This document shows, in pieces, positions 8,151 to 14,816 of a stretch of 42,684 nucleotides of DNA (the stretch's first letter is position 1; every line of letters begins with the position of its first letter). The DNA is from Sphingomonadales bacterium BRH_c3 (GTDB lineage: Bacteria; Pseudomonadota; Alphaproteobacteria; Sphingomonadales; Sphingomonadaceae). A program made the translations under genes and the position numbers. The stretch lies in contig LOET01000149.1 of assembly GCA_001515985.1 (NCBI GenBank), positions 1-42,684 of the forward strand. Reading direction: 5' to 3'. The notes under the pieces were generated by a model that worked only from the letters and a program-made list of their open reading frames with translations, had not been told where the DNA came from and did not search any database.

Positions 8151-10769
8151 TCAATCGCGCAGCCGTTCGATCGATTGCGCGAGCGCGACATAGAGCTTGC
8201 CCATATCCGAGCTAAGCAGCGTGACCCCCATTGTGTTGCCATCGCGGGTTGAAAGTACCGAGCGCAACATGGCTTCGAAATCATGGATATAGCGGCTGAC
8301 ATGCTCGCGGAAGCTGTCATCCGCCTCGAACAGTTCCATGATTTCCCTTGCCTGGGAATTGTCGACAAGCCGCACTGCCCGGCGCGTGAAAATCCCGCGA
8401 TCGCCCTTGAGGTAAGATGCCCATGCAGTGTCTGTGGTATCGTGCGATAGCGCCTTGGCGATGTCGATGGCGTTTGAATTGAGGCTCTCGGTGATCAAGG
8501 CCACCCGCCGTGCAAAATCATTGTCGACCTTTTCCTGCGCCTGTTCTCGGGCGCGGGCAACGCGCTGCTCCAGATTGCTCACCAACTCGTTTACCTTGGC
8601 AAGCTGATCGCGCAATGTGACGGCGATTTCACGACCGCTGGTGGAAGCCCGCAAGTTTGCTTCCTCGATGCGCTCGGCGGCATGCGCGCCTTCTTCACGC
8701 AAGGATTGCTCGATCGCTGCGCTGGCCTTGACCCCGATTTCTTTGGCCAGTGCCCCAAGCCGCTCTTCCGTGCCTTCCTCGATCGCCGCAAAGGCCTGCC
8801 TTGCCGCATCTTCCAGCTGGACTATCGCGGCCCGCAATTCCTCGTTGGTGCGCGACGAAACACGATCGCTTTCCTGCTCCAGTTTGCTCAAGGCGCCGCG
8901 CAGAGCGGAAATCCGCGCCAGGCCCTCATCCGCACCCTCGGCAAGGCGCGCGTTGAGCGCCGCGATCTTCTGATCGGTTTCCTCAACAGTTTCGCGGGCG
9001 GCAATGACATAATCGGATAGGCTGCTGCTGCGCTCATGCGCGGCTTCAACCGTGCCCTTGAGCATGGCCGCGCGCTGCTCGACATCGCCCAGCATTGCCC
9101 CCGCCTTGTCGATTGCCTGGGGCAGGGCTTCGCGGCTTTCGCGCGCACCCGACTGGATAATTTCGAGCAGGCGGATACCGGCCTCGGTCAGTTCGCCAAG
9201 GATCGTGCCGGTGACGGCGAGTTCGTTGCGGCTGTGCGCAAGCTTCTCAGTCGTATCGCCAAGACCTTGACCGAGTGTAGTGGTGGTAAGCTGTGCTTGT
9301 TCGGAAACTGAAGCAATTAGGGTATTCAGCTCCTCAACCTTCGATGTAATATCAGTGCCTTGTGTTACGAGTTTTTCGAGCCGGGCGAGCTGCGCTTCGG
9401 TCCTTTCCGACAGCATTTCGTCGAGCTCTGACAGGCGCTGCGCCAACACTTCGCTGGCCTGTGCCTCGCGAGTATCGAATTCATCCTGCCTGCGGGCAAT
9501 TTTTTCGGCGAAGTCGGCATCGTGTGCCGCAAGCCTGGCCGCAAACTGTTCACTTTCCAGTTCCAGCGCTTCAATCCGCCTTCGCCCGGTCGCTACAGCG
9601 TGCTGATCGAGCTGATCGAGCTTGCCGACGACTTTGGCGAGATCGGTATAAAGCCGGTCGCGATGTTCATCGAGCATGGTGACGGAATCGTGCTGCGTTT
9701 GGTTGAGCGCGGCGCTCACCGCCTGGATTTCATCACGCAAACTGGCGATCTGGTCCTGGAAAGTGTTGACGCGGGCACGTTCCTGGGTTTCGAATTCTTC
9801 CCCCAGCGCGGCCACCATAACGCGCAGTTCTTCGGCGCGGCCGTGCATCGCGGCGAACGCGCCTGCTTCATGGCTGTCTATTTCTGCGCGGAATTCGTCA
9901 CTTTTCGCGTTCAAAACGGCAAAGCGGCTCTCGGTAATCTGATTGATCCGGTCGAGTTGAGCTTCAAATCGGGCCAGCGTGTCATTCACCTGTTCGGTCA
10001 ATGTGTTGACCTGCTGGCCGCTTGCGGCACCAAAGTGATTGAGCCGTTCGAACCCGGTGACCAGCTTCTCAATCTGTTCATGCGCGGTTCGGCCAGCCTG
10101 ACCGATCTGGTTGGAGGCATCGCGCGCCGAAGTCGCAATAACCGGCAAGTCGTCACGCAGCTTTCCCATGTTTATCAACGCAGTATCACTGACTGTTGCG
10201 ATTGCCTCTACTTGAGCGCCATTGGTGTGGATCAACGCCTGAAGCTCGCCTGCATGGGTGGACAGCCGTTCACTGGCTATGCGCCCGAAAGATTCCAGCT
10301 CGCGCGATTGTGTGCCCAGGAATTCGCGCGCCAGTGAAAGCTCGCGATTGACCGCTGCCAGCCGGTTCTCAAGCGCGCTCGCCTCTTGCCGCAGTAACAG
10401 AGCCGTATCGCCGAAACGGACAGCTTCGCGGCGGCTCAGGCGCATGGCGAGAAGCCAGCAGGCTACGATCAGCAGGATCGGCACAGACCAGTCCATGATC
10501 CATCCCGCCCATTGTTGCGGCGTCCCGCCTGTCAGAATTTCCGCTTGAAATGCCCAGCCAAAGAATCCGGTCCAGCCCGCCATGGCAAGCATCGCCAATG
10601 CGGGTACAAACCAGTCATACCAGCGCCTGCGAGGTGCCGGTTCATCAATCTCGTCACCCGGTTCTTCCTCCAGGATCAGCGGCTCATCGCCAGCATGCTG
10701 AGCGGATTGTTCAGGCGCGTTCTGCGCGGCTTCAGGCCCGATAGCCCGGATATGCGATCCAGTCGTCAT
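8151..10769 (-). CDS. Large two-TM coiled-coil protein, TipN-like architecture
   Basis: An 872-residue protein. The acidic, Pro-containing N-terminus (1-50) is followed by two membrane helices at about 54-75 and 91-110, then almost 650 residues of Ala/Glu/Gln/Leu-rich heptad sequence. A compact C-terminal segment (about 775-872) contains SYLKGDRGIFTRRAVRL, FREHVSRYIHDFEAML and LLSSDMGKLYVALAQ. Length and order match Caulobacter TipN, a new-pole marker of about 880 residues with two N-terminal helices and a long coiled coil; homology is inferred, not tested. Automated annotation often calls such proteins ATPase or kinesin-like, but no Walker motif is visible. The gene diverges from the HPt-like operon across 70 bases. 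The ATG lacks a strong Shine-Dalgarno. Confidence 0.8.
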   Translation of the reverse strand: MTTGSHIRAIGPEAAQNAPEQSAQHAGDEPLILEEEPGDEIDEPAPRRRWYDWFVPALAMLAMAGWTGFFGWAFQAEILTGGTPQQWAGWIMDWSVPILLIVACWLLAMRLSRREAVRFGDTALLLRQEASALENRLAAVNRELSLAREFLGTQSRELESFGRIASERLSTHAGELQALIHTNGAQVEAIATVSDTALINMGKLRDDLPVIATSARDASNQIGQAGRTAHEQIEKLVTGFERLNHFGAASGQQVNTLTEQVNDTLARFEAQLDRINQITESRFAVLNAKSDEFRAEIDSHEAGAFAAMHGRAEELRVMVAALGEEFETQERARVNTFQDQIASLRDEIQAVSAALNQTQHDSVTMLDEHRDRLYTDLAKVVGKLDQLDQHAVATGRRRIEALELESEQFAARLAAHDADFAEKIARRQDEFDTREAQASEVLAQRLSELDEMLSERTEAQLARLEKLVTQGTDITSKVEELNTLIASVSEQAQLTTTTLGQGLGDTTEKLAHSRNELAVTGTILGELTEAGIRLLEIIQSGARESREALPQAIDKAGAMLGDVEQRAAMLKGTVEAAHERSSSLSDYVIAARETVEETDQKIAALNARLAEGADEGLARISALRGALSKLEQESDRVSSRTNEELRAAIVQLEDAARQAFAAIEEGTEERLGALAKEIGVKASAAIEQSLREEGAHAAERIEEANLRASTSGREIAVTLRDQLAKVNELVSNLEQRVARAREQAQEKVDNDFARRVALITESLNSNAIDIAKALSHDTTDTAWASYLKGDRGIFTRRAVRLVDNSQAREIMELFEADDSFREHVSRYIHDFEAMLRSVLSTRDGNTMGVTLLSSDMGKLYVALAQSIERLRD

Positions 10770-10839
10770 TTGTGGAAACTACTCGATTTTGAGAAAGGAT
10801 AAACCCCGCTTTAACCGTTGTGCGCATATCCGCCATCAG

Positions 10840-11163
10840 ATGGCGTATGAAAGCGGTTCCCTTGATGCAACATTGGCTGCGGCTGCGGGTGAGGACATCG
10901 TCTTGCTGGCCGAGCTACGCAACGCTTTGGTTGAGAGCGCTGAGCGGCAGCTTGACCTGATGCGCCGCGCCCGTTGTGACGGAAATTGGCGTGTTGCTGC
11001 GATGCGTTTGAAAGGGCTTGCCGCAAGCTTCCACGCGGAGGAACTGCTCAACATATCCGAAGCGGCGCTGGAAGCTGTTCCGGGCGAACCTGGCGTGCTG
11101 CGCGAGGTGGAGCAGGAGATCGCGCGGCTAGCGGGGCGGCCGCTTATTCCTGCGCACGGCTGA
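10840..11163 (+). CDS. HPt-domain-like protein lacking the phospho-histidine
   Basis: A 107-residue, all-helical protein. Residues about 20-95 follow the HPt pattern: a leading amphipathic helix (LLAELRNALVESAERQL), then the segment that normally reads AHxLKG, here AMRLKGLAASFHAEEL. Met55 therefore sits where the phosphorylated His should be, so a phosphotransfer role is unlikely unless another His (for example His65) is used. The ORF track starts at TTG 10789; I prefer ATG 10840 because the protein then begins right before the domain. It is first in a rightward run with the next three genes and diverges from the TipN-like gene. Function unknown; a docking or sequestering role is inference. 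Confidence 0.7.
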   Translation: MAYESGSLDATLAAAAGEDIVLLAELRNALVESAERQLDLMRRARCDGNWRVAAMRLKGLAASFHAEELLNISEAALEAVPGEPGVLREVEQEIARLAGRPLIPAHG

Positions 11164-11268: not shown

Positions 11269-12453
11269 GTGCGCAGCGCATTACTATCGACACTGGAACT
11301 GACGCAGGCGGGCCGGCCGCGCGCGTTCGAGCGGCTTGGCGGGCGATCGCTGATCGCCTGGCAGGTGGATATGGCGCGCGACCTTGGCTGCACGCGGATA
11401 ATATGCCTTGCACAGCGCGACAGCGAGCCTTTGCAGGACCTGCACGAGAGTGTGGAAAGCGCAGGTTTGGAGTTCCAGCTGGTGCGGGGGCCGTTGCCAC
11501 TGGCGCGGCTGCTTTCCGCCGATCAGGAGCTGGTGGTGATTGCCGATGGACTGGTGATCGATCGTGAGCGCTTGGCCGCGACCATTGGAGAGCAACGCGG
11601 CGTTGCAGCCTTGCCAGCTGAGGAAGGGCTGGCCGCTGGGTTCGAGCGGATCGATGCGGACCATGCCTGGGGCGGTGTGCTGGTCACGCGGGCAAGGATT
11701 GCGGAACAATTGGCGGATATGCCGCCCGATTGCGACACAATCTCGGTTTTGCTGCGGCTCGCATTGCAGGCCGGGGCAAGGCTGGTGAATGTGAGCGCGG
11801 AGGCGCTCGATAGCGGAGAATGGCTGTTGGTGCGTGACCGCGCGGTGTTGGCAATGCGCGAGGAAGCTTTGCTTGATCGCAGTGTTGAGAGCGCCGCTTG
11901 GAGCGCGCCGGGCACTGCACTCAGCCGCCGGATCGCCCGGGCATTGGCGCCCGATGCGTTGGATCGGGGGCCTGCTACGGCACTGGGCCTTGGGGCATTG
12001 GGTCTGCTGGGTGCTGTGGTGCTGGCGCAGCTTGGCCTGAGTTTAGCAGGGCTGACAAGCTTCATTGTAGGCGCTTTTACGCTTAAACTGGGTGAGGCGC
12101 TGGGCAGGCTCAAGGCCAGGTTACGCGGAATAGGGCCTGGAACGCGGCGCGCAGACCTGCTGCGAAATATCCTGGATTTCTCGCTTGTGATGGCTCTTTC
12201 GCTGCCGTTCGAACTGGATTCCTTGCCCCAGCGGATGTTCCTGCCGTTGATGTTTGTGGGGCTTTTGCGCCTTGGAGAAAGCCTGGCCCCGGAAAAATGG
12301 CGTGCGGCCTGGGGTGATCGCCTCCTCGCGGCGTCGATTTTGCTTCCGGCGGCATGGTTTGGCGTGCTGGATCAAGCAGTTGCCGGTCTCTCTTTACTGG
12401 CACTCGGATTATGCCTGTTTTTTCGGCGAGAATCGAAGATAACGCGGGCTTAA
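11269..12453 (+). CDS. Membrane protein with nucleotidyltransferase-like N-terminal domain
   Basis: A 394-residue protein I cannot assign to a characterised family. Residues 1-200 look like a reduced GT-A/NTP-transferase fold (QAGRPRAFERLGGRSLIAWQ, then alternating strands and helices). Residues about 235-390 contain four to six hydrophobic helices and end in a basic tail. This order recalls bifunctional cytidylyltransferase/CDP-alcohol phosphotransferase proteins, but the CDP-alcohol motif DxxDGxxAR is not present; the matching helix reads TLKLGEALGRL. The GTG start at 11269 is supported by a strong GGGGGAAAGG eight bases or so upstream. It lies between the HPt-like and DUF2336 genes in the same direction. 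Confidence 0.65.
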   Translation: MRSALLSTLELTQAGRPRAFERLGGRSLIAWQVDMARDLGCTRIICLAQRDSEPLQDLHESVESAGLEFQLVRGPLPLARLLSADQELVVIADGLVIDRERLAATIGEQRGVAALPAEEGLAAGFERIDADHAWGGVLVTRARIAEQLADMPPDCDTISVLLRLALQAGARLVNVSAEALDSGEWLLVRDRAVLAMREEALLDRSVESAAWSAPGTALSRRIARALAPDALDRGPATALGLGALGLLGAVVLAQLGLSLAGLTSFIVGAFTLKLGEALGRLKARLRGIGPGTRRADLLRNILDFSLVMALSLPFELDSLPQRMFLPLMFVGLLRLGESLAPEKWRAAWGDRLLAASILLPAAWFGVLDQAVAGLSLLALGLCLFFRRESKITRA

Positions 12454-13436: not shown

Positions 13437-14816
13437 GTGGCGGCTCCCGATTCGCTTCTGGCTGCGCGCGGTCTTACCGATGGCGAGGACCGCCTGGTTT
13501 CGGCTGACCAGCCCCTGTCGGAGCTGCAGCAGCGCTGTGGAGGCCAGGTTCCAGGCAGGCTGGCCATCCCAGAACTGCTCGAACTGGTGCGGCAGGGGCG
13601 CCGAATGGGCTTGCGCCTGGCGCGCGAGTTTTCTGCGCAGGATGGCGATGCTCGTGTGAGCGGCTTTGTCCGCATACATCCTTTGGCAGCGGATCGCGGC
13701 GATGGTTGTGAGATCCTGATCGAGAACTGGCGGCGGGAAACTGTCGGAGCACAAGATGACCGCGAGACCACCGCAAGGCAGGACGCGATCGACAGGGCAA
13801 CGGCGGAGTTTACCGCGCGACTCGACGGCAAACAGCGCCTGCTCGCCGGTGAAGGCAGTGCGCCGGATCTGGCGGAACTGATTGATGAGACACGCAAGCA
13901 CGCCGGCAAGCCGTGGGTGGACTATGTCGAACTGATCGGGATTGCGCACCGTCAGCCCCTGCATTGGCGCCTGCTTGACGGGGTGCGTTGCAAGCTCGCA
14001 GGTTCGCAGCGCGACTGGCGGGCTCGCCTCATTCCACTTGGCACGGAAGCCGCCATGCCGCGCGGATTTGAATTGTTGCTGGTGGCCGATCAGCCGCCGC
14101 CGCAAGCCGAGCCGCAAAACGAAGATACGCAAACAGGCGGCACCGGTCTGATCGGGGATGCGCTGATGCCTGCTCTGCGCCAGCCGGTAGCGCGGATCAT
14201 CGCCAATGCGGAAACTATCCGATCGAAACTGGCCGGGCCCTTGCGCACCGAATATTCGAATTATGCTGCCGACATCGTGTCAGCGGGCAGGCATCTGGCC
14301 GGTTTGCTTGACGATCTGGGTGATCTCGAGGCTGTCGAGGCACCCGGATTCACTGCCGCAAAGCAGGCGATCGATCTTGCCGATATCGCCCGCAAGGCTG
14401 CCAGCATGCTGACGGCCAGGGCCAATGACAAGCAGATCGAACTGGTCAGCCCCGGCAATGACGAGAGTTGTCCCGCAACCGGTGACGCCCGCCGGGTCTT
14501 GCAGATCGTGCTCAATTTGGGCGCGAATGCGATCAACTATTCGCCCAGGGATAGCCGGGTTGAGATTTCGGTGGGGCCGTGGCGCAGCGGCTTGCCCAGC
14601 GTCAGCGTGCGCGATCAGGGCCCCGGCCTCTCACGCGAAGATCAGCAGCGGATGTTTGCGAAGTTCGAGCGGCTTGGTCGTTCGGGCGATGGCGGCTCTG
14701 GCCTTGGGCTTTACATTTCGCGCAAGCTGGCCCTGGCCATGTCGGGCTCGCTTGCGGTCGAAAGCGAGGTAGGCAAGGGGGCGGTCTTCACCCTGGTTTT
14801 GCCCAAGAAAGCCTGA
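13437..14816 (+). CDS. Histidine-kinase-like protein with degenerate H-box
   Basis: A 459-residue soluble protein. Residues 1-220 form an uncharacterised, possibly PAS-like sensory region with no membrane helix. Residues about 238-300 align to a HisKA dimerisation helix pair, and 310-458 form an intact HATPase domain with N-box NLGANAINYS (Asn360, Asn364), G1 DQGPGL, F-box FAKFERLG and G2 GGSGLGLYISRKLA. In the H-box the expected SHELRTPL reads MPALRQPV, so the phospho-accepting His is Pro245. ATP binding is plausible but normal autophosphorylation is not. The GTG start lies three bases after the DUF2336 stop. Most databases would simply call it a sensor histidine kinase. Confidence 0.85.
   Translation: MAAPDSLLAARGLTDGEDRLVSADQPLSELQQRCGGQVPGRLAIPELLELVRQGRRMGLRLAREFSAQDGDARVSGFVRIHPLAADRGDGCEILIENWRRETVGAQDDRETTARQDAIDRATAEFTARLDGKQRLLAGEGSAPDLAELIDETRKHAGKPWVDYVELIGIAHRQPLHWRLLDGVRCKLAGSQRDWRARLIPLGTEAAMPRGFELLLVADQPPPQAEPQNEDTQTGGTGLIGDALMPALRQPVARIIANAETIRSKLAGPLRTEYSNYAADIVSAGRHLAGLLDDLGDLEAVEAPGFTAAKQAIDLADIARKAASMLTARANDKQIELVSPGNDESCPATGDARRVLQIVLNLGANAINYSPRDSRVEISVGPWRSGLPSVSVRDQGPGLSREDQQRMFAKFERLGRSGDGGSGLGLYISRKLALAMSGSLAVESEVGKGAVFTLVLPKKA

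Follow-up and report, generated by a model that had tools for sequence, protein, structure and literature searches.

The window analysed here, a 42,684-nucleotide stretch of contig LOET01000149.1 from Sphingomonadales bacterium BRH_c3, contains a gene for an 872-residue protein that had been proposed, from the letters of the DNA, to be a counterpart of the Caulobacter new-pole marker TipN, with the products of the operon next to it as possible partners. The locus raises the question of whether the protein is a TipN, and what the divergent HPt gene beside it has to do with it. The gene is probably the Sphingomonadaceae member of an alphaproteobacterial family of cell-pole scaffolds comprising RgsE, GPR and, more distantly, TipN, with the divergent HPt protein as its likely partner. 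The family assignment is by itself fairly ordinary; less so are the recurrent pairing with HPt and the shared, un-modelled domain described below.

Gene and protein architecture

The gene occupies positions 8151-10769 of the minus strand, starts with ATG and is a single intact frame encoding a membrane-anchored helical-rod protein of 872 residues. It is flanked on one side by DUF1467, ribonuclease J, coaX, birA and nuo genes, and on the other by the divergent operon containing the HPt gene, followed by gltA. An ortholog was present in all 21 sampled relatives. The gene was found in 60 of 61 Sphingomonadaceae genomes, usually in one copy, the sole miss being a genome that is 67% complete. Two genomes, G119 and G333 (locus L234), have two copies of the C-terminal domain.

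Behind a short N-terminal region the protein has two hydrophobic helices. The second (residues 91-109; 10443-10499, minus strand) is the single clear transmembrane helix found in the window copy by a hydropathy scan. The first (residues ~52-73; 10551-10616, minus strand) is weak here, lying just below the hydropathy threshold, and is above it in several orthologs. With one clear and one sub-threshold helix, the protein would be anchored at its N-terminus by both, leaving its bulk in the cytoplasm.

The following rod (residues ~121-735; 8565-10409, minus strand) has 0.3% proline and is rich in alanine, glutamate, leucine, arginine and glutamine. It is built of apolipoprotein-like amphipathic repeats, which match PF01442 with E=5e-8 and a sub-threshold 33.2 bits against the Pfam cut-off of 90. 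Its 3.6-residue hydrophobic period exceeds all 500 shuffles, whereas the 3.5-residue (heptad) period is not above them. The structure is therefore better termed an apolipoprotein-like helical rod than a canonical coiled coil. The 872-residue protein gives weak matches to a range of helical models, those for SMC, apolipoprotein and other coiled coils among them, and no specific similarity of the rod itself to other proteins was seen. NCBIfam has nothing specific for the protein, and a search of phrogs gave no match.

The C-terminal domain

The last part of the protein (residues 733-872, with a core at ~759-870; 8154-8573, minus strand) is a globular, all-helical domain, as delineated by sequence comparison and a model. 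Two segments in it, SYLKGDRGIFTRRAVRL and DMGKLYVALAQ, had been singled out as distinctive. Both are the best-conserved parts of a ~110-residue domain common to Alphaproteobacteria, and their residues are among its invariant or near-invariant ones. A 15-sequence profile detects the domain in 70 of 190 sampled alphaproteobacterial genomes spread across the class. Each of these 70 genomes nearly always has it once, and the ORFs that contain it reach ~2,500 residues.

No Pfam or NCBIfam model covers the domain. The AlphaFold2 model, computed from an alignment of 43 sequences, is all-helical with a mean pLDDT of 91 and a pTM of 0.83. A fold search of the PDB with this model returned no match at E<=0.001, the best TM-scores being below 0.4, and a viral structure library contained no fold match at E 0.001; searching the PDB by sequence gave no convincing solved match. 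A single un-modelled domain joins RgsE/GPR and TipN to a protein that is near-universal in sphingomonads.

Relation to RgsE and GPR

In the PLSDB entry of Sinorhizobium meliloti Ak57 (CP090106.1), the window domain matches the C-terminus of UIJ93612.1 (tblastn, E=4e-16), a 2,089-residue protein annotated as 'kinesin' and containing eight apolipoprotein stretches. Comparison of the window protein with full-length UIJ93612.1 by BLASTP gives 38% identity over 112 residues, with 82 bits and E=2e-19. RgsE of S. meliloti (SMc00190) has the same published length and apolipoprotein architecture (PMC7327166), and UIJ93612.1 is taken here as RgsE on organism, length and architecture. Although its label reads plasmid pSymB, CP090106.1 (locus L298) measures 3.7 Mb and contains cytochrome bc1 and folP genes, which suggests a chromosome under the wrong label.

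GPR of Agrobacterium tumefaciens (Atu1348) is a homolog of RgsE (PMC8262873). Both are new-pole growth proteins, the loss of which rounds or distorts the cells (PMC7327166, PMC8262873). Removal of the last 10 or 221 residues of GPR impairs or abolishes its function, and its C-terminal end comes after a proline-rich stretch (PMC8262873); in a 2,158-residue GPR-like protein sampled here the domain is likewise situated downstream of such a stretch. Homologs of RgsE have been reported in Rhizobiales and, in more remote form, in two further orders (PMC7327166). In the profile search the domain was found in 59 of 61 genomes of one order (that of genome G090), mostly in very long ORFs. We infer this GPR-rich order to be Rhizobiales/Hyphomicrobiales.

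The window protein shares with RgsE and GPR a long apolipoprotein-like rod and the homologous C-terminal domain of ~112 residues, and would share the two N-terminal membrane helices, the first of which is weak here. However, its length is 872 rather than ~2,100 residues, its rod is shorter and falls below the PF01442 cut-off, and no proline-rich stretch precedes the domain. Because of this length and the low PF01442 score it is not filed as a GPR/RgsE proper; judged by its sequence, it is a short relative of these proteins. RgsE and GPR have been characterised in polar growers, and the likeness of the sphingomonad protein to them is known from sequence. Its membership in the same family as RgsE/GPR can be proposed on these grounds with high confidence.

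Relation to TipN

TipN marks the new pole of Caulobacter and has effects on ParA and PopZ. Its published length is 882 residues (PMC13170164). Caulobacter vibrioides DSM 9893 has an 882-residue protein that ends in a diverged version of the domain and is taken as TipN on organism, length and architecture. A domain profile made without Caulobacteraceae rows finds the diverged domain in 13 of 13 Caulobacteraceae genomes, in ORFs of ~830-1005 residues. Conversely, a profile built from Caulobacterales alone has the window gene as its only match in the window's genome (E=1.4e-13), so that the reciprocal HMM search put forward with the original prediction succeeds both ways. A profile restricted to Caulobacteraceae did not retrieve the gene from that genome. 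Alignment of the Sphingomonadales and Caulobacteraceae domains with hhalign gave 96.6% and E=5.6e-10.

The pairwise match of the window protein to the Caulobacter protein is marginal (BLASTP: 25 bits, E=0.015, 25% identity over 64 residues). The Caulobacter protein also matches the C-terminus of the S. meliloti protein with 25 bits, and the place of TipN in the family thus rests on profiles.

With TipN of Caulobacter the window protein has in common its size (872 against 882 residues), two N-terminal helices, a helical rod and a distantly homologous C-terminal domain. The differences are that the domains are about 16-25% identical, that the WxxYxxGDRxxFxRR part cannot be made out in the Caulobacteraceae proteins, and that no HPt neighbour is found at the Caulobacteraceae loci. 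Common family membership with TipN is accordingly proposed with moderate confidence. Since the window protein matches the S. meliloti protein with 82 bits (E=2e-19) and the Caulobacter protein with 25 bits (E=0.015), its sequence is closer to that of RgsE/GPR, with TipN more remote, and it would be best described as an RgsE/GPR-TipN family member that is not specifically a TipN. The original identification thus stands at the level of the family, through the reciprocal profile link of the C-terminal domain, and calls for correction at the level of TipN itself. GPR/RgsE and TipN have been compared only in passing in the accessible literature (PMC8546619, PMC13170164), in which no paper treating both TipN and Sphingomonadales was found.

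The divergent HPt gene and its operon

The first gene of the divergent operon (10840-11163, plus strand) encodes a degenerate HPt protein of 107 residues, recognised by its sequence and predicted fold. It has methionine at the histidine position of HxxKG, and its Pfam Hpt score is below the cut-off. The fold is nevertheless predicted to be intact: the model has a pLDDT of 90, and named HPt proteins account for six of the seven PDB entries that it matches best. The top five matches have probabilities of 0.92-0.99 and TMq values of 0.57-0.69, with no Foldseek E-value below 0.001. The predicted helical bundle is shared with the single-domain HPt proteins ShpA, HptB and AHP1, from which the window protein differs in lacking the phosphorylatable histidine and in its sub-threshold Pfam score. 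It is 55-62% identical to the HPts of four other genera.

The second gene (11269-12453, plus strand) encodes a protein with a weakly MobA/GlmU-like (NTP-transferase-like) N-terminal part and a hydrophobic C-terminal half. A histidine kinase-like protein with a HATPase domain is encoded further downstream (13437-14816, plus strand); the histidine of its H-box is replaced by proline. The phospho-accepting histidine is absent from both the HPt-like and the kinase-like protein, in agreement with their earlier description as non-phosphorylating.

The neighbourhood was compared at 52 Sphingomonadaceae loci, which are the window, 11 loci of its genus and 40 of other genera. At 51 of them the scaffold gene has one or more of the HPt, NTP-transferase-like and kinase-like genes beside it. 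The NTP-transferase-like gene is the most consistently kept (46/52), with HPt present at 37 and the kinase-like gene at 36. In Sphingomonas parapaucimobilis the divergent neighbour is annotated as 'Hpt domain-containing protein'. Locus L234 is the only one in the family without an operon gene nearby. The H-box position of the kinase-like protein is proline at 27 of the 36 loci and histidine at three; the kinase-like proteins at L223 and L224 have an intact HELR[TS]PL box.

Beyond the Sphingomonadaceae, iterated profiles placed an HPt gene next to the scaffold gene at four of eight loci from further families of Sphingomonadales; upstream of the gene there is little or no sequence at two of these eight. 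Linkage to the operon is conserved within Sphingomonadaceae, and linkage to an HPt gene recurs in other orders. In the GPR-rich order an HPt gene adjoins the scaffold gene at 14 of 15 loci, 13 times divergently and once on the same strand, the remaining locus being without HPt. In S. meliloti an intact HPt gene diverges from the rgsE-like gene of CP090106.1, an arrangement shared with the window, where the HPt neighbour differs in having no histidine and in belonging to a larger operon. Elsewhere in the class 9 of 48 sampled loci had the pair (iterated profiles). By the same profiles there was no HPt beside the gene at 11 Caulobacteraceae loci or at five loci of a sister family, and the HPt link is therefore not a TipN feature.

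All eight of the distant HPts that were tested exceed the Pfam Hpt cut-off. As there are just 2-7 HPt matches per genome, the recurrent adjacency of HPt and scaffold genes is unlikely to have arisen by chance. The phospho-accepting histidine is kept in 28 of 28 HPts outside Sphingomonadaceae, compared with 2 of 37 inside. The recurring HPt neighbour, that of S. meliloti rgsE included, provides a concrete candidate for the connection between scaffold and phosphorelay, and the Sphingomonadaceae loci without the histidine are a natural experiment on the need for phosphotransfer. No published account of the pairing of HPt with rgsE or gpr was found in the accessible literature.

The divergent intergenic region

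The scaffold and HPt genes are separated by 70 nucleotides (10770-10839) that form a divergent promoter/operator region, as had been noted originally. Within it there is a conserved, operator-like box, TAAA-N7-TTAAC (10800-10815, plus strand), recognised by conservation across loci. The pattern T.AA-N7-TTAA was matched at 20 of 33 loci at a similar position between the two genes, 0.1 being expected from shuffled sequence; the loci are related, and the figure overstates their independence. The box resembles that of CtrA, with one mismatch to TTAA-N7-TTAA(C). However, TWAAN7TTAAC has only two matches in the 2.5-Mb, 82%-complete genome assembly, against 17 for a reversed control. The only match other than the one in the window is L250 (G000:C32:496-511). 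The box is thus nearly unique in the genome and is probably not a general CtrA site; control of the divergent pair by CtrA was not accepted.

Proposed role of the scaffold and its neighbour

By analogy with RgsE, GPR and TipN, the protein would be situated at the new pole or in the growth or division zone, where it may organise envelope growth. The two N-terminal helices would anchor it in the inner membrane. The rod of ~600 residues would extend into the cytoplasm and self-assemble into oligomers, and the C-terminal helical domain of ~110 residues would be needed for pole function, that is, for targeting or for binding of clients. Ancestrally, a phosphorelay would have been linked to the scaffold through the HPt, which in Sphingomonadaceae may have turned into a partner or regulator that acts without phosphorylation, a single operator controlling both genes. 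The divergent HPt protein is a likely candidate for a functional partner of the scaffold. The wider proposal, that RgsE/GPR-TipN scaffolds work with a dedicated divergent HPt which wires pole organisation to a phosphorelay, and that this module has become phosphorylation-independent in Sphingomonadaceae, with a pseudo-kinase under the same operator, is made tentatively.

The protein might belong to the family and yet do most of its work at the envelope or the site of division, alongside Tol-Pal and peptidoglycan enzymes for instance, as an organiser of the septum or growth zone instead of a persistent new-pole marker. The greater similarity to RgsE/GPR than to TipN makes this conceivable, as do the interactions of RgsE with TolQ, RgsA and RgsS and the altered cell shape upon its loss (PMC7327166); loss of TipN also affects envelope integrity (PMC7403779). 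Nevertheless, RgsE has been reported at the growing pole and is absent from the septum (PMC7327166), and a mainly septal role is regarded as a tenable but doubtful alternative.

It is unlikely that the HPt gene is a positional relic, sharing a promoter region with a protein with which its product does not cooperate and having lost its histidine as dispensable. Caulobacteraceae do lack the linkage, other orders show it only in places, and 35 of 37 Sphingomonadaceae HPts have lost the histidine. However, the conservation of the degenerate sequence across genera, its intact predicted fold, the retained divergent linkage and the conserved intergenic box all argue against a relic, and selection therefore seems to act on the degenerate HPt.

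An unrelated long coiled-coil membrane protein, TipN-like only in size and composition through convergent helical repeats, would account for the weak matches to all coiled-coil models, the rod without specific similarity and the 25-bit Caulobacter match, but is very improbable and was rejected on the evidence of the C-terminal domain, since the homology lies in this globular domain and not in the rod, reaches E=2e-19 with the S. meliloti protein (as regards RgsE/GPR the idea is close to refuted), extends through class-wide profile matches with reverse retrieval of this gene alone, and is accompanied by an HPt gene that diverges from the family gene here as in S. meliloti.

A second small gene beside scaffold loci

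At several loci a protein of 85-125 residues with the motif GGKLPLFD...TIRACI..GWAEPWF.NP..PDWLVCKLT is encoded between the HPt and scaffold genes or adjoining the scaffold gene. Neither the window nor the Sphingomonadaceae loci contained it, and it has no match in Pfam or NCBIfam. The gene adjoins the scaffold gene in the GPR-rich order, in other Sphingomonadales families and, among Caulobacteraceae, in Caulobacter sp. CCUG 60055; it links TipN-side and RgsE-side members by synteny. Copies are located at L279 (2010-2348, minus strand), L280 (318-659, plus), L033 (9120-9374, plus), L105 (1664-2008, minus) and L181 (5250-5594, minus). The C-terminal part of the protein may be winged-helix-like.
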